Part shown: positions 3,795 through 57,423 of the stretch, in pieces | How positions within the stretch are numbered: position 1 is the stretch's first letter | Layout: the number at the start of each line of letters is the position of its first letter | Source: Alphaproteobacteria bacterium LSUCC0396 | GTDB lineage: Bacteria; Pseudomonadota; Alphaproteobacteria; Puniceispirillales; Puniceispirillaceae | Assembly: GCA_041228345.1 (NCBI GenBank) | Contig: CP166131.1 | Location: 1,543,001-1,607,000, forward strand | Length of the DNA: 64,000 bases | Reading direction: 5' to 3' | Translations under genes and position numbers: made by a program | The notes under the pieces: generated by a model | Database searches by the model: none | What the model saw: the letters and a program-made list of their open reading frames with translations, nothing else | What the model was told of the DNA's origin: nothing

Positions 3795-3869
3795 AACCGG
3801 CTAAATACCGGCTAAATAATGTTGCAGTGCGCACCGATCTGATGCGTGCTAGCTGCGGAGATCAGGGTA

Positions 3870-4256
3870 ATGCCATCAAAATCGCGTCGTCCGCAAAGTG
3901 CAACCGGTCCAAGCCAGCGTCAGTTACGCGTTGGTGAAACCTTGCGGCACGCCTTGTCGGAAATATTGATGCGGGAGGATTTTTTTGATCCTGACCTTGC
4001 CAATGTGTCGATCACAATTTCGGAAATTTCTGTTAGCCCAGATCTGGCGAATGCGCGCGTTTATACAATGCCGCTTGGCGGGGTTAATATCGAACTTGTG
4101 CTGCCAGCATTGAACCGTCTTGCACCGGTGATCCAGTCGCTTGTTGCAAAGAAGGTTCATTTACGGCGCACGCCTAGGCTGCGGTTCTTGCTTGATGACA
4201 GTTTTGAGAATGCGGCGCGGATGAACAAGCTTTTTGCCGCAATCCGCCAAGAGTAA
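3870..4256 (+). CDS. rbfA: 30S ribosome-binding factor RbfA
   Basis: The 128-residue protein has the single KH-like RbfA fold, with RVGETLRHALSEIL near the N-terminus and a conserved RRTPRLRFLLDDS segment near residues 100-112. RbfA helps mature the 5' end of 16S rRNA and is a cold-shock factor. I chose ATG 3870, preceded by GGAG at 3857-3860; an in-frame GTG at 3846 would add eight residues with no better ribosome-binding site. It lies between infB and truB, as in most proteobacteria. Confidence 0.95.
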   Translation: MPSKSRRPQSATGPSQRQLRVGETLRHALSEILMREDFFDPDLANVSITISEISVSPDLANARVYTMPLGGVNIELVLPALNRLAPVIQSLVAKKVHLRRTPRLRFLLDDSFENAARMNKLFAAIRQE

Positions 4257-4263
4257 TGGCGCA

Positions 4264-5196
4264 ATGGCACGCAAACGCGGTCAGCCGGTTCATGGCTGGG
4301 TTAATCTAGATAAACCAAAGGGTGTCAGTTCGGCAAAGGCGGTGGCCATTGTCCGGCGTGTCTTTGATGCAGCAAAGGCAGGTCATGGCGGCACGCTTGA
4401 CCCGCTGGCAAGCGGTATTTTGCCGATTGCGCTTGGCGAGGCGACCAAAACCGTTTCCTTTGCCATGGGTCAACAGAAATCCTATGAATTTGAGCTGGCT
4501 TGGGGCAGTGAGACAAGCACCGATGATACCGAAGGTGACGTCACGCACCAGTCGGATCACCGGCCAGATGATGCCGCAATTGATACAGCGCTGGCAAAGT
4601 TCCAAGGCCATATCGAGCAGGCACCGCCGGTCTATTCGGCAATTAAGATTGATGGTAAACGCGCCTATGATCTGGCGCGAAAGGCGGTGGATGATGCACC
4701 GGCTATAACGCTGGAATCACGGCCGATTTATATCGAATCATTTCGCCGGATCACATCGGATGAACATCATGCCAGATTCTATGTGGCTTGCGGCAAGGGC
4801 GCTTATATCCGCGCGCTGGCAAGAGATTTGGGCCGTGAACTTGGCACGGCGGCCCATGTAACGGCATTGCGCCGGCTTTCGGTAGGACAATTTCACGCCG
4901 ATCATGCGATTTCGCTGGATTTTTTGGAGAGCCTACCGCATAGTGCGGCCGCTTTCGAGCATTTGCATCCTGTTGTGAGTGCGCTGGACGACATCCCGGC
5001 GCTACCCATTTCAGGGAATGAGGCAGCTAAGCTTCGCCACGGCCAGACGCTCCCTGCGATTAGTGCATCAGCACAAGATCGCTTTCAGGCGCTTCTGACC
5101 GGTGCAACCGCAATCGCGATGGACGGAGACCGTCCTGTGGCGCTGGTGGTGATCAAGGCTGGTGCGGTATGCCCCGTTCGTGTGCTGAATATTTAA
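4264..5196 (+). CDS. truB: tRNA pseudouridine-55 synthase
   Basis: TruB converts U55 of the tRNA T-loop to pseudouridine. The 310-residue protein shows GWVNLDKPKGVSSAKAV near the start, then GHGGTLDPLASGILP, which holds the catalytic Asp (motif GTLDP) near residue 45, and the PPVYSAIKIDGKRAYDLAR motif near residue 125. ATG 4264 lies 7 bp after the rbfA stop; a TTG at 4234 inside rbfA is less likely. The C-terminal domain resembles a short PUA-like region. It is part of the infB-rbfA-truB-rpsO run. Confidence 0.96.
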   Translation: MARKRGQPVHGWVNLDKPKGVSSAKAVAIVRRVFDAAKAGHGGTLDPLASGILPIALGEATKTVSFAMGQQKSYEFELAWGSETSTDDTEGDVTHQSDHRPDDAAIDTALAKFQGHIEQAPPVYSAIKIDGKRAYDLARKAVDDAPAITLESRPIYIESFRRITSDEHHARFYVACGKGAYIRALARDLGRELGTAAHVTALRRLSVGQFHADHAISLDFLESLPHSAAAFEHLHPVVSALDDIPALPISGNEAAKLRHGQTLPAISASAQDRFQALLTGATAIAMDGDRPVALVVIKAGAVCPVRVLNI

Positions 5197-5831: not shown

Positions 5832-7946
5832 ATGTTCAAGTTATTCCGCAAAGAATTGGAATGGGGCGGTACAAAGCTGGTTATGGAAACCGGTAAAGTT
5901 GCCCGCCAGGCCGATGGCGCCGTTATGGTCAGCCTTGGCGAAACAAAAGTATTATGTACAGCTGTTGCGGCGCAAAGCCCAAAGCCGGGTCAGGATTTCT
6001 TTCCATTGACCGTTAATTATCAAGAAAAAGCCTTTGCCGCGGGAAAGATTCCCGGCGGCTTTTTCAAGCGTGAAGGCCGTCCGTCGGAAAATGAAACCCT
6101 CGTTTGCCGTCTGATTGACCGTCCAATCCGCCCGTTATTCCCAAAATCATTCAAATGTGAAACGCAGGTGATCTGTACGGTGCTTGCGCATGATATGGAA
6201 AACAACCCCGATATTGCTGCGATGATTGGTGCCTCGGCTGCCCTGACCCTGTCAGGCGTGCCATTCTTTGGTCCGATTGCGGCTGCACGTATTGGCTGGA
6301 TTGATGGTTCTTATGTGCTGAACCCGAGCGTTGACCAGATGGATGAAAGCGAACTTGATCTGGTGATGGCCGGAACGCATGAAGGCGTGCTGATGGTTGA
6401 GTCAGAGGCCAAGGAACTATCCGAAGACATCATGCTTGGCGCGGTGAATTTCGGTCATCAGGCGATCAAGCCGGTGATTGATGCGATTATTGAGCTTGCC
6501 GAATCCTGTGCCAAGGAACCTCGTCCTTTGCCTGAAGAGCCAGCTGAAATCGCTGACATCAACAAGGTTTTAAAAGGTTTTGCCAAAGGCTTTGAAGCGG
6601 CTTACAAGATCGCCGATAAGACCGATCGTCAATCAGCATTGAACGAAGTTCGCGCCGAGGCAAAAGAAGCCCTTGGTGATGAATATGATGCTGTGCTTGT
6701 TGGTGGCCTGATCAAAGGCATGGAAGCCGATGTTGTTCGTGGTGCCATTTTGAAAACCGGCGTCCGCATTGATGGCCGGGATACAAAGACAGTTCGTCAG
6801 ATTGTCGCCGAGGCCGGGTTCCTGCCGCGTGCGCATGGATCGTCTTTGTTTACCCGCGGCGAAACCCAGGCGATGGTTGTTGCCACGCTTGGCACTGGTC
6901 AGGACGAACAGATCATTGATGCGCTGGTTGGCGAAAGCCGGTCCAGCTTTATGCTGCATTATAACTTCCCGCCTTATTCAGTTGGTGAGGCTGGCCGGGT
7001 TGGCTCGCCGGGTCGTCGTGAGATCGGCCATGGCAAATTGGCATGGCGTGCATTGCGCCCCTTGCTGCCGACAAAGGAAGAGTTCCCCTATACTATTCGT
7101 CTGGTTTCTGAAATCACCGAGTCAAACGGATCATCATCAATGGCAACCGTCTGTGGTGGCTCATTGGCAATGATGGATGCAGGCGTGCCGATTAAACGGC
7201 CGGTTGCCGGTATTGCGATGGGGTTGATCAAAGAAGGCAATGATTTTGCGGTTCTGTCTGACATTCTTGGTGATGAAGATCACCTCGGCGATATGGACTT
7301 TAAAGTTGCCGGTTCAGAAAATGGTGTAACCTCGTTGCAGATGGACATCAAGATTACCTCGATCACGCCTGAGATCATGCAGATCGCGCTTGATCAGGCA
7401 CGCGATGGTCGTCTGCATATCCTTGGCGAAATGGCCAAGGCATTAACCTCGGCGCGTGACGATCTAGCTGATAGCGCACCAAAGATCACAACGTTGAAAA
7501 TCCCGGTTGATAAAATCCGTGATATCATTGGCCCGGGTGGCAAGATCATTCGTGAAATCTGTGAAGAAACAGGTGCCAAGATTGATATTGAAGATGATGG
7601 AACCGTCAAGGTTGCAGCGGTATCTGGCCCGTCAGGTGAAGCCGCTGTTGCGCGGATTCGTGATATCGTTGCCGAGCCTGAGCTGGGTGTGATCTATAAT
7701 GGTACCGTCGTGAAAACCGTTGATTTTGGCGCCTTTGTCAATTTCCTTGGGGCAAAAGACGGTCTGGTTCATATCTCCGAGCTGCAAAATGGCCGTACCG
7801 AAAAAACCACCGATATTTGTAAAGAAGGTGATGCGGTAAAGGTCAAGGTCATCGGCTTTGATGATCGGGGCAAGGTAAAGCTGTCAATGAAGCGCGTTGA
7901 TCAGGAAACTGGTGACGATCTTGAGACAGCTGGCGAAGCTGAATAA
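5832..7946 (+). CDS. pnp: Polyribonucleotide nucleotidyltransferase (PNPase)
   Basis: This 704-residue phosphorolytic 3'-5' exoribonuclease is a degradosome and RNA-turnover enzyme. Two RNase PH cores (about residues 10-230 and 310-545) contain [12 protein letters not shown] in the first and [12 protein letters not shown] and [19 protein letters not shown] in the second. A KH domain ([12 protein letters not shown] near residue 563) and an S1 domain ([16 protein letters not shown] near 624) follow. ATG 5832 is preceded by GAAAGAGATGAAATAG. The order rpsO-pnp is conserved across bacteria. A terminator follows closely. Confidence 0.98.
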
Positions 7947-7976
7947 CTGAAGCTGAACAAATAGTATAAAAACGCA

Positions 7977-8006
7977 AAAGGCGGTGCCACAAGCACCGCC
8001 TTTTTT
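7977..8006 (+). terminator. Rho-independent terminator after pnp
   Basis: The stem AAAGGCGGTGC / GCACCGCCTTT flanks a short CACAA loop and runs into six Ts. It also has an A run on its left side, so it can work in both directions for the converging pnp and fabI transcripts. Confidence 0.85.
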
Positions 8007-8026
8007 ATACGCTATAAAACGCCGGC

Positions 8027-8815
8027 TTATGATTCGCCCGGAATACCAACCGAATTAAAGCCGCCATCGACAAAATGCACTTCGCCGGTTACGCCTGATG
8101 ACAGATCAGATACCAGATAAAGACCAGCCCGCCCCACCTCATCAAGACCGGGGTTGCGCCGTAAGGGGGCATGGTGTTCGGCATGACGAAAGATATGTCT
8201 TGCACCGGTAATGGCCGCACCGGCAAGGGTGCGCATGGGCCCGGCAGATAGCGCATTGACCCGAATATTTTGACCACCAAGATCAACCGCAAGATACCGA
8301 ACCGATGCTTCAAGCGCTGCTTTGGCAACCCCCATCACATTATAGTTTGGCGTGCTGCGTTGTGCGCCAAGAAAGCTAAGCGTAACCAAGGCACCGCCAT
8401 TTGGCATCATGGTGCTGGCGGCACGCGCGGCCTCGGTAAAGGAATAGGCCGATACCATCATGGTGTTTTCAAAATTCTCTCGGCTGGTATCCATATAGGC
8501 GCCTTTCAATTCATTCTTGTCGGAAAATGCCAGCGCATGAACGACAAAATCAATTGTTGGCCAATGGGTTGCCAGTTCGGCAAAACAGCGATCAACTGCC
8601 CCTTCCTTGGCAACATCACATTCGATCATGATGTTCGAGCCAATCGAGGCTGCCAGCGGTGCTAGCCGTTTGCCAAACCCTTCCATCTGATAGGAAAAGG
8701 CAATCTCTGCGCCTTGCTTGGCGGCGGCTTCGGCGATGCCCCAAGCAATGGATTTGTCATTTGCAACGCCCATGACAAGGCCGCGTTTGCCAGCCAATAA
8801 TGTTCCGGGCTGCAT
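8027..8815 (-). CDS. fabI: Enoyl-[acyl-carrier-protein] reductase (NADH), FabI type
   Basis: FabI performs the last reduction of each fatty-acid elongation round. The 262-residue short-chain dehydrogenase has the FabI nucleotide-binding start GLVMGVANDKSIAWGIA and the catalytic Tyr-x6-Lys (YNVMGVAK) near residue 155, plus SFLGAQRSTPNYN. It is the third gene of a - strand run fabA-fabB-fabI, with 2 bp between fabB and fabI, so the three are probably cotranscribed. It ends at a bidirectional terminator shared with pnp. Confidence 0.96.
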   Translation of the reverse strand: MQPGTLLAGKRGLVMGVANDKSIAWGIAEAAAKQGAEIAFSYQMEGFGKRLAPLAASIGSNIMIECDVAKEGAVDRCFAELATHWPTIDFVVHALAFSDKNELKGAYMDTSRENFENTMMVSAYSFTEAARAASTMMPNGGALVTLSFLGAQRSTPNYNVMGVAKAALEASVRYLAVDLGGQNIRVNALSAGPMRTLAGAAITGARHIFRHAEHHAPLRRNPGLDEVGRAGLYLVSDLSSGVTGEVHFVDGGFNSVGIPGES

Positions 8816-8817
8816 AT

Positions 8818-10050
8818 TTACACCTTCCGCAAAGCCAATGTGGCGTTGGTGCCGCCAAAGCCAAACGAGTTGGATAATGCCAGATTAATGGAAAAATCAT
8901 CTATGCGGCTTTGGGCAACCGGAATATCACCAATGGCCGGATCAGGTGTCTGGATATTGGCGGATGCGGCAATGAAGTTATTCTGCATCATAATGATTGT
9001 ATAGATGGCCTCTTGCACACCGGTCGCGCCAAGCGAATGGCCGGTTAGTGATTTTGTTGAGGTGACCACTGGCAGATGGCCACGCGGGCCAAAGACTGTG
9101 CGAACCGCGTCAAGTTCCTTTACATCGCCAACGGGGGTCGATGTGCCATGCGCATTGATGTAATCAACCTTTTCGGTCACTGCGTTACCATCAAAACCGG
9201 CAAGCGCCAGTTCCATACACCGCACTGCACCCTCGCCGGAGGGGGCAACCATGTCCTCACCGTCAGAATTGGCACCATAGCCAACAAGCTCGGCATAGAT
9301 TTTGGCACCGCGCGCAATGGCGTGATCCATATCTTCAAGCACCACCATGCCGCCGCCGCCAGCGATTACAAACCCGTCGCGATCAGCATCATAGGGGCGT
9401 GATGCCAGTTCAGGCGTATTATTATATTTTGATGACATTGCGCCCATTGCGTCAAATAACACAGATAATGTCCAATGCAGCTCTTCACCGCCGCCAGCAA
9501 AGACAATGTCCTGACTGCCGCTGCGAATGGCATCAGCACCCGCAGTGATGCAATGTGCTGAGGTCGAACAGGCTGATGAGATCGAATAATTTATGCCCCT
9601 GATTTTGAAAAAGGTGGCGATACAGGCAGACACGGTCGATGACATACAGCGCGGCACCATATAAGGCCCAATACGCTTTGGCCCTTTTTCGCGGGTAATG
9701 TCAAATGCGGCAAGAAGATTGGCTGTTGATGGCCCGCCAGATCCGGCAACAAGCCCAGTTCTTACATTCGATACATCGCTGTCTTCAAGGCCTGAATCGG
9801 CAATCGCCTGTTCCATCGCCAGTACCGCATAGGCCGCACCTTCACCCATGAAGCGAAGCTGCTTCCGGTCGACATGATCGGCGACATCCAGCTTTACCGT
9901 ACCATGCACCTGACTGCGAAACCCAAGTTCGGTATATTCCGGTGCAGCAACGATGCCCGAGGTTCCGTTCCGCAAAGAAGCGGTCACTTCACTGACGTTA
10001 TTTCCGATCGAGGAAACGATCCCGATTCCGGTAATGGCAACACGGCGCAT
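8818..10050 (-). CDS. fabB: 3-oxoacyl-[acyl-carrier-protein] synthase I
   Basis: FabB condenses malonyl-ACP with acyl-ACP and is needed to elongate unsaturated intermediates made by FabA. The 410-residue protein has the active-site Cys in [11 protein letters not shown] near residue 161, and the two His in [12 protein letters not shown] (near 297) and [11 protein letters not shown] (near 332). A C-terminal [12 protein letters not shown] motif closes the thiolase fold. It sits 5 bp after fabA, as expected for the anaerobic-type unsaturated fatty-acid pathway. The pairing with fabA favours FabB over FabF. Confidence 0.95.
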
Positions 10051-10902: not shown

Positions 10903-11364
10903 ATGGGAAAACTGACTGAACAAAAGCTGAGCCAAAAAACCAAGACGCCAGGCCAGGCTAATCTTGCCGAAACATTGCGTCTTGCCGGATTGCGGCCAAC
11001 ACGCCAGCGACTGGCGATTGCGGCCTTGCTTTTGGATGGTCGGCATCGTCATGTCACCGCTGACAGCCTGACCGAAGAAATTGCCGCGGCAGGCCTCTCT
11101 GTATCGGGCGGCACTGTTTATAACACGCTGAACCAGTTTACCGATGCTGGTTTGCTGCGGCGGGTCGTGGTGCATAATGAATACAGCCTGTTTGATACAA
11201 ACACCGACCATCACCATCATTTTTACGAAGCGGAAAATGACCAGCTTGTCGATATTCCGAACGATGATGTGATCCTTGCGCAATTGCCAAATGCGCCTGC
11301 GGGACATGAAATCAAGGCAGTCGATGTTGTTATCCATATCCAGAGCAAAGCGGCGCCAAAATAA
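10903..11364 (+). CDS. irr: Fur-family iron response regulator Irr
   Basis: Irr is the heme-sensing Fur-family regulator of alphaproteobacteria. The 153-residue protein has the winged-helix segment LRPTRQRLAIAALLL near residues 27-41 and SGGTVYNTLNQFTDAGLLRR near 66-85, then NTDHHHHFYEAEN near 102-114. The run of His matches the Irr metal/heme site, and the C-terminal Cys-x2-Cys pairs of zinc-type Fur are absent. The N-terminal heme motif seen in Bradyrhizobium Irr is not present. Adjacency to fabA and an ICE-like box before katG support Irr over Fur. Confidence 0.87.
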   Translation: MGKLTEQKLSQKTKTPGQANLAETLRLAGLRPTRQRLAIAALLLDGRHRHVTADSLTEEIAAAGLSVSGGTVYNTLNQFTDAGLLRRVVVHNEYSLFDTNTDHHHHFYEAENDQLVDIPNDDVILAQLPNAPAGHEIKAVDVVIHIQSKAAPK

Positions 11365-53588: not shown

Positions 53589-54971
53589 ATGACGTTTAAT
53601 CAGGACTCGATAGATCAGGCAATTGCTGTATTAAAACAGCAGTTTGGCGACCGGTTAAGCGTTGCGCAAACGGTGCGTGAGCAGCATGGTCACACCACCA
53701 CTAGAATGCCCAACCAGCCACCTGATGCAGTTATTTTTGCCAAGAGTGCCGAAGAAATTTCCAGCATCATGCAAACCTGTCACAAGCTTGGCTGTCCGGT
53801 GATTGCGTTTGGTGCTGGCTCGTCACTTGAGGGGCATGTCAACGCGCCATATGGCGGCATCTCGATTGATATGAACCAGCTTGATCAGGTGCTAGCGGTG
53901 AATAATGAAGATTTGGATGTGGTGGTACAGCCCGGCATTACCCGAGAGGCGCTGAATGATTATCTGCGTGATAGTGGGTTGTTTTTCCCGATTGACCCGG
54001 GCGCGAATGCCAGTATTGGCGGCATGGCGGCAACGGGTGCTTCGGGAACGAATGCGGTTCGTTATGGCACCATGCGCGACAATATCTTGGGGATGCAGGT
54101 GGTAATGGCCGATGGGCGCATCGTCCGGGTTGGCGGGCGTGCGCGTAAATCATCAGCCGGTTATGATTTAACGCGGCTATTCATCGGATCTGAGGGCACG
54201 CTTGGCATTATCACCGAGCTGACCTTGCGGCTGCATGGTATTCCTGAGGTCATCGCTGGTGGCATTTGTTCTTTTCCCACCATTCACGCGGCCTGTGATG
54301 CGGTGATTATGACAGTTCAGATGGGCATTCCAATGGCACGGATAGAGCTATTGGATCCGCTGCAAGTTCGCGCCTGTAATACCTATTCAAAGCTGGATCT
54401 GCCCGAAGAGCCGCTATTGCTGGTTGAGTTCCACGGCTCGGCAGTTTCTGTGGATGATGATGTAAAGAGGTTTGCCGCAATTTGTGCCGAACTTACAAGC
54501 TCAGATTTTCAATGGTCGAATGAGCCAGAACAACGCAGCAAATTATGGAAGGCAAGGCATGATGCCTATTGGGCGGCGCTGGCGCTTATCCCGGGGGCAA
54601 AGGCCTATGCAACTGATGTTTGTGTGCCGATTTCAAACCTTGCCTCATGTGTCGAGGAAACCATCAAAGACATCAAAGAAAATGGTCTGACCGCACCGAT
54701 TGTGGGCCATGTTGGCGATGGTAATTTTCATGTCCTGCCGCTGGCGATGCCGGATGATGATGCGATGAATGACAAGGTGAGCGCCTTTGCCAAACGGCTG
54801 ACGACGCGGGCGTTGGCTTTTGGTGGTACCTGCACGGGCGAGCATGGCATTGGCCAAGGCAAGCGCGACTCGTTGTTCGAGGAAATGGGGGATGCGGTTG
54901 ATCTGATGGCCGGAATTAAGGCTAGGTTTGATCCGGCGGGCATTTTGAACCCGGGCAAGGTTTTTCACTAA
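53589..54971 (+). CDS. FAD-linked 2-hydroxyacid dehydrogenase (D-lactate dehydrogenase/GlcD type)
   Basis: The 460-residue protein has the PCMH FAD-binding fold: CPVIAFGAGSSLEGHVNAPY near residues 72-91, PGANASIGGMAATGASGTNA near 137-156 and SEGTLGIITELTLRLHG near 200-216. The C-terminal substrate domain has VGHVGDGNFHVLPLAM near 375-390 and CTGEHGIGQGKRDSL near 416-430. This favours a D-lactate dehydrogenase (cytochrome) over the narrower GlcD, but glycolate is possible. ATG 53589 follows GCGAGGG. Divergent from PhyH. Confidence 0.9.
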   Translation: MTFNQDSIDQAIAVLKQQFGDRLSVAQTVREQHGHTTTRMPNQPPDAVIFAKSAEEISSIMQTCHKLGCPVIAFGAGSSLEGHVNAPYGGISIDMNQLDQVLAVNNEDLDVVVQPGITREALNDYLRDSGLFFPIDPGANASIGGMAATGASGTNAVRYGTMRDNILGMQVVMADGRIVRVGGRARKSSAGYDLTRLFIGSEGTLGIITELTLRLHGIPEVIAGGICSFPTIHAACDAVIMTVQMGIPMARIELLDPLQVRACNTYSKLDLPEEPLLLVEFHGSAVSVDDDVKRFAAICAELTSSDFQWSNEPEQRSKLWKARHDAYWAALALIPGAKAYATDVCVPISNLASCVEETIKDIKENGLTAPIVGHVGDGNFHVLPLAMPDDDAMNDKVSAFAKRLTTRALAFGGTCTGEHGIGQGKRDSLFEEMGDAVDLMAGIKARFDPAGILNPGKVFH

Positions 54972-55145
54972 CACCCGCTCAACATGGCTTTAGGCCTTTA
55001 TAAAGGCTGTGCGTACGGTCAAAAAGCAAATAGCGCGCAACAGTTTATACCATCTGCGCCTATTGACGGATGTCTAGGGTTCTTTAGCATACTGATATTA
55101 CTTGAGGTCATTCAAAGATGACGCATAAGCAAGGCAATGATAGCA
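54972..55145. other. Left flank of the recombinase cassette
   Basis: This 174-bp stretch between the hydroxyacid dehydrogenase gene and the left inverted repeat has no gene. It holds a perfect palindrome GCCTTTATAAAGGC at 54994-55007, probably a weak terminator or cruciform, and TTGACG at 55063-55068 that could be a -35 reading into the cassette with a 19-bp spacer to CATACT. Confidence 0.4.
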
Positions 55146-55226
55146 TCCCGAGCGCGCCATTTCCTTACAAAGGTTAAGCCATCCTATTGATCTTCAAGGA
55201 TTCTTTTGAATTGCCGTGAGGGGGGG
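55146..55226. repeat. Left 81-bp inverted repeat, with tRNA-Arg 3' end
   Basis: 79 of 81 bases match the reverse complement of 57280-57360, with mismatches at 55198 and 55223. Its first 14 bases (TCCCGAGCGCGCCA) are the 3' end of tRNA-Arg. Its other end holds GTGAGGGGGG, the ribosome-binding site of the gene starting at 55231. It reads into the cassette. Confidence 0.95.
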
Positions 55227-55230
55227 CTGA

Positions 55231-55821
55231 TTGAGTATACTACGTAAATTTACCCAACACTGGCTTGGCATAACCACGCTTGCCTATCTGCTCACATTCG
55301 TTATTTGGCGATATTTGATACTGCCTTTTGAAATCAGCCTCACCAACGAGAACGCTATATTTGCCAGCTTCCTGTTCTTGCCTCACGCAGTTCGTGTTTT
55401 GAGTGCATGGTTATTAGGCCCTAAATCACTCATCGCTATGATTCCAGTTGGCATTGCTGTATCCCTGATTGGCGGCGTATCGCCTCCGCAGGGCTATGAA
55501 TTACTGTTGGAAGTAATTCTAGCAACCTTTGCTGCATCATCAGCAGTAATGGCTTTTGAGTTTATGCGGTTTTGTAAAATAGATGCCTACCCAAAGGATG
55601 CGGGTATAGTCAGCTGGCGCACTGTACTGTTCGGCGGTGTCTTGGCGTCAATCATTAACTCGCTAGGTTCAACATGGCTGAAATCTGGTTATTTTGATGC
55701 TGCCCTAATTCTTGAAGTCATAACTCGCTTTATTCTTGGGGATGTAATGGGCTTGATTGTAGGGATGTTAACTATCATGTTCGTAGCTAGATATATGCGT
55801 AAACAAGGGTTTTCGTCGTAA
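55231..55821 (+). CDS. Cassette membrane protein of unknown function
   Basis: The 196-residue protein has about five or six hydrophobic helices, for example TTLAYLLTFVIWRYLILPF near residues 15-33 and SLIAMIPVGIAVSLIGGV near 66-83, then a likely lipid-facing VITRFILGDVMGLIVGMLTI near 165-184. The central PHAVRVLSAWLLGPKS slightly recalls MASE1-like membrane modules. The start is TTG 55231, just after the left repeat, with GAGGGGGGG as ribosome-binding site. It is followed 9 bp later by a small gene. Transporter or sensor roles are both open. Confidence 0.72.
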   Translation: MSILRKFTQHWLGITTLAYLLTFVIWRYLILPFEISLTNENAIFASFLFLPHAVRVLSAWLLGPKSLIAMIPVGIAVSLIGGVSPPQGYELLLEVILATFAASSAVMAFEFMRFCKIDAYPKDAGIVSWRTVLFGGVLASIINSLGSTWLKSGYFDAALILEVITRFILGDVMGLIVGMLTIMFVARYMRKQGFSS

Positions 55822-55830
55822 GAGAAGCAA

Positions 55831-56115
55831 ATGGCAAACAGAAAGATTTATGCCGACCTATTGCGGGTCACCAAGTCAATGGAAGCAGATTTAGGACTGG
55901 ATGGGTTGACCAATACAGACCAACAGGTTCTTGCGTCTATCGTTCTGCTATCCAATGACGGTCAAAGCGAAGCTTTGTTGCAAGACCTAAAAGTACACGA
56001 ATTAACAAAGGATATACCAACGCCCTCACTTTATAGGTCACTTAAAAACCTTATTGAGTGCGGCATTGTTATAAAGGTTGGTAGTGAACGGTCAGGTATA
56101 TATAAACTAGCTTAA
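55831..56115 (+). CDS. Cassette small protein, possible winged helix
   Basis: The 94-residue product is soluble. Its C-terminal half, LTKDIPTPSLYRSLKNLIEC then GIVIKVGSERSGIYKLA, has the helix-turn-helix then beta-wing look of MarR-like regulators, and the N-terminal half ADLGLDGLTNTDQQVLASIV fits the first helices. AGAAG lies just upstream of ATG 55831. It ends 4 bp before the recombinase stop. It could be a regulator or excision factor; I do not recognise the family. Confidence 0.65.
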   Translation: MANRKIYADLLRVTKSMEADLGLDGLTNTDQQVLASIVLLSNDGQSEALLQDLKVHELTKDIPTPSLYRSLKNLIECGIVIKVGSERSGIYKLA

Positions 56116-56119
56116 GTGG

Positions 56120-57271
56120 CTATTTCGTTAGTTCATCCATCCAACTCTTTGTCAAATCCAACACATACCCCTCTCCATAACTCTGTCCTACACCAGCAGT
56201 AGACCACCCGCCTATCTGGTCAATCATGTCTGATGGACATTGAACAGCCCTCAGCCTGTCTCTGAGGCTATGCCTGAAGGAGTGAATTACACACCCATCT
56301 GATACTCTAGGCTTAAGCCACTTGTTAATTGCTGCTGATGCTGAGTTGGCATTAGTCCCTTTAGGTGATGTGTATCTTGGGAAGGCATAAGGACTAGTAG
56401 TACTAGTCTCCTTAACTCTCGTAGCAGCCCACAGGGAGGCTCCTACCAGTGGTATCTGTCTTTGACTGCCCCTTGTCTTTAGACCTCTCCATGAGTGAGG
56501 CTTCAGGTCTATGTGAGGTATCTCACAATCCAGCTTTATATCATCTACACTCAGACCAGCAGCTTCAGATAACCTCATGCCTGTGTCTGATATGAGTGCT
56601 ACTAGCCACCTGGCTTCATCATCAATAGACATACATTCCTTCTGTATCTCTCTGATGTTCTCAATAGGTATAGGTTTTCTTTTCTTGGCATCATCAAGGT
56701 CAGGAAGATAAACACGCGAGAAAGCGTTCTTACACTCTAAGCCATGTTCTTGAATAGCTAGATTGATAACAGACCTGATGGTGGCAAAGTTCCTCTTAAC
56801 TGAGTTAGTCGTAAGACCTCGTTTAAGAAGGTAATCCCTGTAAGCAGCAGCATCAGAGGATGAATATTCATCTAAGGGCCTATCACTCAGTACATCTACT
56901 ACTGACTGGATGTTCCTCTCAGCACCTCTGTGGAAGGTCTTATCCTTATTGACACCCTTCAGCCTTAGATACAGGTCCAAAGCCTCTGTAAGAGTCATAC
57001 AGGAGGATTGAGATAGCTTCTGAGGCTCACCTCTAAGCAAATGAAAGGCTGGTATATCTAGGTTAGCCAGCCTCAAAGACATCCAATAGTCTTCAAGCCT
57101 CTGTGCGATAGACCTAGCTGCACGAATAGCTTGGTCTTTTCTGCTTGTCTTTAAGCAAATAACGATTCTGGAAGCTTTGTAGTGTGCCTGAACATCCTTA
57201 GGCACACGCCTATTAAAGTAATAGGTTTGCCCCTTAACCCACAGGTAAGAGGCCATGTCATGGTATACCAT
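56120..57271 (-). CDS. Tyrosine recombinase/integrase of the cassette
   Basis: The 383-residue enzyme has an N-terminal arm/SAM-like DNA-binding part (YFNRRVPKDVQAHYK) and the catalytic domain with Arg in DTGMRLSEAAGLSV near residue 234, His-x-x-Arg in HSFRHSLRDRL near 332-342, then GGWSTAGVGQSYGEGY near 356-371 with the nucleophile Tyr. Arg codons are often AGG/AGA, unlike the host genes, a sign of transfer. ATG 57271 has GAGGGTGGG upstream, inside the right repeat. The gene is read away from tRNA-Arg, so the tRNA promoter can drive it. Confidence 0.92.
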   Translation of the reverse strand: MVYHDMASYLWVKGQTYYFNRRVPKDVQAHYKASRIVICLKTSRKDQAIRAARSIAQRLEDYWMSLRLANLDIPAFHLLRGEPQKLSQSSCMTLTEALDLYLRLKGVNKDKTFHRGAERNIQSVVDVLSDRPLDEYSSSDAAAYRDYLLKRGLTTNSVKRNFATIRSVINLAIQEHGLECKNAFSRVYLPDLDDAKKRKPIPIENIREIQKECMSIDDEARWLVALISDTGMRLSEAAGLSVDDIKLDCEIPHIDLKPHSWRGLKTRGSQRQIPLVGASLWAATRVKETSTTSPYAFPRYTSPKGTNANSASAAINKWLKPRVSDGCVIHSFRHSLRDRLRAVQCPSDMIDQIGGWSTAGVGQSYGEGYVLDLTKSWMDELTK

Positions 57272-57279
57272 CTGTACTA

Positions 57280-57360
57280 CCCACCCTCACGGCAATTCAA
57301 AAGAATCTTTGAAGATCAATAGGATGGCTTAACCTTTGTAAGGAAATGGCGCGCTCGGGA
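57280..57360. repeat. Right 81-bp inverted repeat, next to tRNA-Arg
   Basis: 79 of 81 bases match the reverse complement of the left copy at 55146-55226. Its tRNA side overlaps the 3' end of the intact tRNA-Arg gene, and its other end holds the ribosome-binding site of the recombinase. It is the likely recombination (att) site. Confidence 0.95.
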
Positions 57361-57423
57361 AGATTCGAACTCCCGACCCCCAGATTCGTAGTCTGGTGCT
57401 CTATCCAGCTGAGCTACGAGCGC
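57347..57423 (-). tRNA. tRNA-Arg (anticodon ACG)
   Basis: A complete 77-base cloverleaf runs on the - strand from GCGCTCGTAG at 57423 to an encoded CCA at 57347-57349. The anticodon stem-loop is CCAGA-CTACGAA-TCTGG, giving ACG, and the T arm has GTTCGAATC. The acceptor stem GCGCTCG pairs with CGAGCGC. The ACG wobble base would be read as inosine, which needs TadA. The gene lies next to the recombinase cassette and is intact. Confidence 0.97.

Follow-up and report, generated by a model that had tools for sequence, protein, structure and literature searches.

Inverted repeats at the tRNA-Arg gene

Ordinary integration at a tRNA gene produces a single attL and a single attR, oriented as direct repeats. 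The recombinase cassette at tRNA-Arg in the 64,000-nt stretch of DNA analysed here (the window) lies between two repeats in inverted orientation, which raises the question of what the second site is and what role it could have. A repeat search of the window gives two 81-nt arms (55146-55226 and 57280-57360), inverted, 98% complementary and 2053 nt apart, and self-BLAST aligns them with 79/81 identical positions (97.53% over 81 nt). ARAGORN finds a single intact target gene, tRNA-Arg(acg), on the minus strand (57347-57423). These searches confirm the first-pass annotation of the locus, which had described the inverted pair and the 14-base tRNA-Arg end in both members.

The right-hand site, attL (57280-57360, minus strand), was placed by the repeat search and its sequence and has the same place in relatives. 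It consists of a 14-nt core, which is the 3' end of the tRNA (57347-57360), and an arm that we call a (57280-57346). The int gene (56120-57271, minus strand) begins 8 nt from arm a and encodes a DUF6538-type tyrosine recombinase of 383 aa, with the DUF6538 domain at the N-terminus according to Pfam. In an alignment of 65 sequences its catalytic set is complete (R233, K265, H330, R333, W356 and Y365, for R-K-H-R-H/W-Y), and the earlier assignment as a tyrosine recombinase stands. The rest of the cassette, cargo1, is made up of two plus-strand genes identified by ORF and Pfam searches. The first (55231-55821) encodes a membrane protein of 196 aa with a sub-threshold match to MASE1, and the second (55831-56115) a winged-HTH-like protein of 94 aa with a weak match to TrmB.

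The left-hand site, which we call attI, has two halves, both on the plus strand. The inner half (55146-55226), placed by the repeat search and its sequence, is a copy of the same 14 nt reversed in orientation (55146-55159) followed by arm a' (55160-55226); the MASE1-like gene begins 4 nt from this arm. The outer half (55047-55159) is an attP arm, b, with the core. It is the single match in the window (nhmmer, E=3e-7) to a b-arm HMM that was built from other elements with the window element left out. The first-pass annotation had given the extent of the 81-nt pair correctly and had missed that beyond 55146 the left member goes on into a full attP arm. Further left lies host DNA with a gene for a FAD-linked oxidase (53589-54971, plus strand, Pfam). 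Homology of this flank to the relative G008 extends to 55003, so the element should end between 55003 and approximately 55047. A degenerate attR that seemed visible to the eye next to the FAD oxidase in G008 drew no match from the b-arm model, and we have discarded it.

The window copy has the marks of a tRNA-integrated tyrosine-integrase element in that an int gene with a full catalytic set lies next to a tRNA with a restored 3' end. The directly oriented, displaced tRNA 3' end that would form attR is present in relatives (at least 11 elements) and missing here: there is no direct-orientation core within 57 kb and only the one b-arm match. The window copy is therefore best read as truncated: attL and attI are present, and attR and the distal segment are missing. 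Lacking attR, it would be unable to excise itself and could at most undergo inversion. Random deletion is one conceivable origin of such attR-less copies.

Recurrence of the inverted arms in other genomes

Random 16-mers from the same loci have an inverted copy (no more than 2 mismatches, 0.8-6.5 kb away) in only 32/3000 cases, or approximately 1%. Set against a match of 79/81, this background excludes a chance origin of the arms. We then scored the loci of 65 recombinases: inverted arms are present in 39 (INV) and absent from 17 (DIR), and 9 have too little flank. Of the 56 scorable loci, 39 have inverted arms with the tRNA end in them, compared with the 1% expected by chance; they belong to SAR116 genomes and, in a few cases, to Rhodobacterales and gammaproteobacteria. 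This count is an underestimate because one G000 locus, at tRNA-Gly(tcc), was first scored as direct-only and has an attI by the b-arm model. The arms occur at many tRNAs and their sequences differ.

In the integrase tree the INV layout is found throughout a clade of 56 sequences (support 100/100) with members from SAR116, Rhodobacteraceae IMCC1909, Glaciecola HTCC2999 and a Pseudomonadales MAG. A scan of viral_contigs gave no relatives of the recombinase. In a more distant Rhodobacterales group inverted arms are absent from 8/9 members, most of which have direct repeats 4.5-9 kb apart. In the ninth, L198, 80-nt inverted arms (9917-9996 and 11096-11175, 97.5%) are accompanied by a direct core at a distance of 1.5 kb from the tRNA, and this may reflect either an independent gain or an older origin of the arms. 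A subclade at tRNA-Gly(gcc) (L179, L180, L185, L189 and L209) has neither inverted arms nor a detectable b arm and has apparently lost attI. Longer inverted repeats (179-344 nt) flank int in L193 and L206 (IMCC1909), where no tRNA was recognised, and L084, near the G019 tRNA-Phe element, contains an inverted repeat of 931 nt with 100% identity (769-1699 and 3801-4731).

The first-pass annotation had raised the possibility that the left repeat is an assembly artefact. Short repeats carry a general risk of this kind. However, the host genome assembled as a single 2.59-Mb contig, and many independent assemblies, including G019 and G037 (each a single contig) and that of the Glaciecola sp. HTCC2999 isolate, show this layout at many tRNAs and with different arm sequences. 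An artefact is for these reasons very unlikely, and we give it virtually no weight.

The host genome has 12 matches to the window recombinase. A second whole cassette, with MASE1-like, HTH and int genes, is found at tRNA-Leu(taa) (L060, G000:C1:2518000-2535000, positions 6920-9594). Its membrane and HTH proteins are 64% and 67% identical, respectively, to those of the window, and its int is interrupted. It has inverted arms of its own (100 nt at 97%) that carry the tRNA-Leu end and are otherwise unrelated to the tRNA-Arg arms. The genome also contains tandem arrays of at least two elements (L061, G000:C1:1632000-1648000, and G000:C1:518000-584000) at tRNA-Thr(cgt) and tRNA-Leu(gag), in which the cores alternate or repeat and some recombinases are broken.

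Organization of intact relatives

We examined relatives with up to 30 kb of flanking DNA. The order in intact relatives is attL (tRNA-core-a), int, attI (a'-core'-b), cargo or replication genes, attR (b'-core) and host DNA. The orientation of the core alternates in at least nine extended loci, being plus at the tRNA, minus after int and plus again 3-15 kb away. Arms b and b' form an inverted pair that ends at the core; in 11 elements they are 195-435 nt long with 96.5-100% identity. Where int lies beside a tRNA, the b-arm HMM places attI beyond int in 35 loci, and attR is seen in at least 11 relatives. The first-pass annotation had proposed a comparison with related genomes for direct-repeat versions, and the attR in direct orientation is what this comparison yields.

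Because attI joins the inner arm of attL to the inner arm of attR, it has the composition of a complete attP in inverted orientation. Taken by itself, this architecture, with a second full and inverted attP inside the element, is in our judgement very probable. The left arm of the window is best read as half of an internal attP and not as the far end of the element. The earlier description of an element bounded by the inverted pair is thus superseded, as the far end in relatives lies at the direct attR further out. The sites set two segments, an int/cargo1 cassette (between a and a') and a distal segment (between b and b') with replication or cargo genes. A circle produced by attL x attR excision would hold a pair of attPs in inverted orientation, comparable to the two inverted sites of the yeast 2-micron plasmid.

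Similarity of the arms and orientation of int

The arms could be alike because they formed recently or because recombination keeps them so, and both had been suggested for the window pair. We compared five pairs of sister elements and scored alignment columns as concerted (the two arms of an element match each other but not those of its sister) or orthologous (the opposite pattern). There are 89 concerted columns and 7 of the orthologous pattern, and where sister elements occupy different tRNAs both arms carry the new tRNA end. These counts favour upkeep and show that the two arms of an element are kept homogeneous, whether through inversion by Int or through gene conversion.

The first-pass annotation had also envisaged that the recombinase freely flips the 2.05 kb between the repeats while the element is integrated. 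The alike inverted arms, the intact catalytic residues and one reversed relative would all fit a switch of this kind. However, a phase-variable switch should be found in both orientations, and across loci int lies directly beside the tRNA and reads away from it in 75 cases and is reversed in one (L062/L169, AH-135-F23). We consider free flipping highly improbable. A fixed orientation together with an inactive recombinase had been named as grounds for giving up the flip; the near-fixed orientation is borne out, whereas the inactivity is not. The bias would equally be expected if attL and attI never recombine. In the reversed locus cargo lies at the tRNA and int at attI, with b upstream of int, and the C-terminus of Int is altered.

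No flipped cassette was observed directly, the same-species data consisting of one fragmented MAG. In this MAG (G061) the tRNA-Leu junction between b and host is common to both genomes and the a' arm and cargo differ, which might be taken for a cassette exchange. We do not rely on it: the 3' end of tRNA-Leu is missing at the junction, so we do not trust the assembly there.

A promoter-like block in arm b and a possible latch

A promoter-like block, TTGACn-N16-TAAnCT, is present in 22/28 b arms and points through the core. In these 22 arms T, A and A at +22 to +24 are conserved in 20/22, 21/22 and 21/22, respectively, and T at +27 in 20/22. The spacer between TTGAC and TAA is unconserved, and 16 nt is a spacing typical of promoters. 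Shuffled arms have TTGAC in the same interval in 6% of cases. Exact IHF-like sites are found in 8/28 b arms compared with 0.45% of shuffles. The sole promoter-like match in the window element, TTGACG-N16-TAGCAT (55063-55090, plus strand, by consensus match), is directed from attI across the core and a' towards the MASE1-like gene. We infer that the block is a promoter, although Int, Xis or IHF may instead bind there.

The arrangement of the genes fits with this. The int start is 0-77 nt from its arm in all scored loci. In 15/20 loci the gene of cargo1 closest to attI begins at the opposite arm and is directed inward (outward in 5/20), so that int and usually cargo1 begin at the inner arm edges and face each other. 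The symmetry is not universal, as several elements have no cargo1, an outward cargo1 or a diverged a' (G019 Phe).

Taken together, these features lead us to favour a self-terminating latch. In the circle, or in a flipped cassette, the putative b promoter would drive int. Integration beside the tRNA would part b from int, Int expression would fall and the cassette would be locked, with cargo1 now driven from attI. If integration took place via the other attP, int would retain the b promoter and Int would invert the cassette until it came to lie beside the tRNA. A latch would explain the inverted site, the promoter-like block, the inward gene starts, the alike arms and the near-fixed orientation, and the reversed L062/L169 looks as a jammed latch would. 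The promoter activity, the inversion and the locking are all deduced from sequence, and for the architecture and the latch jointly we regard the case as almost evenly balanced, leaning slightly against. There is an in vitro precedent for such inversion in another tyrosine integrase, Int-pTN3 of Thermococcus, which inverts DNA flanked by inverted tRNA att sites (PMC5495485).

Much of the same evidence could be read as a static module, in which attI, as a fixed att duplicate, equips cargo1 with a promoter and a 5' leader, the similarity of the arms is maintained by host gene conversion and Int inverts nothing. The inward cargo1 starts at the arm edge and the block in b are consistent with this, as are the almost invariant orientation of int and the element G010, which has a decayed int and retains arms identical over 91 nt. 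It does not explain why a whole attP is retained, including the core and the IHF-like site, why attI persists in minimal elements without cargo1 (G000 Thr and G040 Leu) or why L062 is reversed. We think a static module unlikely.

Filamentous phage CTXphi offers a further model, as inverted arms in its single-stranded form are reported to pair with each other on folding and so to make a duplex attP. If the present element did likewise, one strand would be exchanged with the tRNA and replication would resolve the product, which would account for both the fixed orientation and a pressure for near-perfect arms. We identified no sign of a single-stranded stage, though, and int cassettes of 1-4 kb would have to lie in the loop; the IHF-like and arm-type features also suggest ordinary duplex recombination. 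A folded attP is accordingly improbable in our estimation, and the latch remains the reading that we favour.

Comparison with known elements

Islander-type tRNA islands (PMC4383910) resemble the element in having an integrase beside a restored tRNA and, as in the intact relatives, a direct, displaced tRNA fragment at the far end. They differ in that the present element has an extra complete inverted attP inside, and the window copy is without the direct far-end fragment. Tycheposons, as discussed in PMC10872708, are likewise marine and associated with tRNAs, and they carry a tyrosine recombinase and cargo; the secondary description given there, on which our comparison is based, makes no mention of an internal inverted attP. 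Strand-biased circularizing elements (SEs), RITs and GInts (PMC10214605) are also tyrosine-recombinase elements, and SEs and RITs have inverted repeats at their ends. However, they have two or three recombinases and the terminal repeats are 13-34 bp (SE and RIT). The present element falls outside these groups, with one recombinase, a tRNA target, an internal inverted site and arms of at least 81 nt. Int-pTN3 is similar as a tRNA-targeting tyrosine integrase, but the inverted sites that it acts on were engineered or are chance chromosomal repeats and not parts of the element (PMC5495485). A literature search for natural elements with two inverted attPs, which covered few subscription papers, gave only engineered systems and the cases cited here, and a prior description is possible.

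A whole clade, with many members in SAR116, retains this third site, a full inverted attP matched to both ends and bearing a promoter-like block. If our reading is true, the site would be a simple built-in stop for the integrase after integration or a bacterial counterpart of 2-micron amplification. Mosaic arrays at marine tRNA hotspots would then have an explanation, and island-finding tools that use direct repeats alone would be affected.

The predicted circle and the distal segment

The yeast 2-micron Flp/FRT system (PMC6594588) is similar in that the recombinase is encoded by the element and its sites lie in long identical inverted repeats that split the circle into two unique segments. 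Two sites in identical inverted repeats of one circle can be deduced here from the integrated order in 11 elements, though not from the window copy alone. Unlike the yeast plasmid, the present element is bacterial and integrates at tRNAs, and amplification is only a candidate function. Such an amplifier would have the inverted attPs act in a replicating circle as FRT sites do, with Int inversion during replication turning one fork round; the integrated form would merely display both sites.

The inverted repeats, made up of a, core and b, are roughly 270-530 bp long with the recombination site inside, and would divide the circle so that the recombinase is on one segment and the replication genes are on the other. 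In the yeast plasmid amplification is driven by the FRTs, which sit in inverted repeats of 599 bp (PMC6594588). Distal replication genes encode a Prim-Pol with an AAA helicase in G037 and G015 and a primase-helicase in G019, with a polymerase-like gene elsewhere, but in many elements no replication gene was recognised. The replication module is oppositely oriented in G037 Asn and G015 Leu, as an amplifier might leave it. This is weak evidence and we do not accept it as proof of inversion, because the direction of the polymerase-like gene varies in direct-only elements too. An amplifier also leaves the fixed orientation at the tRNA unexplained, and as an alternative to the latch it is doubtful. 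The broader proposal, of a widespread marine family in which an inverted promoter-bearing attP serves as a recombination latch and possibly also as a 2-micron-like amplifier in the circle, is possible rather than probable.

Finally, a small protein with a weak match to a terminase small subunit PHROG is encoded in L086 (15495-15845) and L085 (13019-13369). Within the distal segment its gene adjoins those for the Prim-Pol or the primase-helicase, and it may point to a link with phage satellites.
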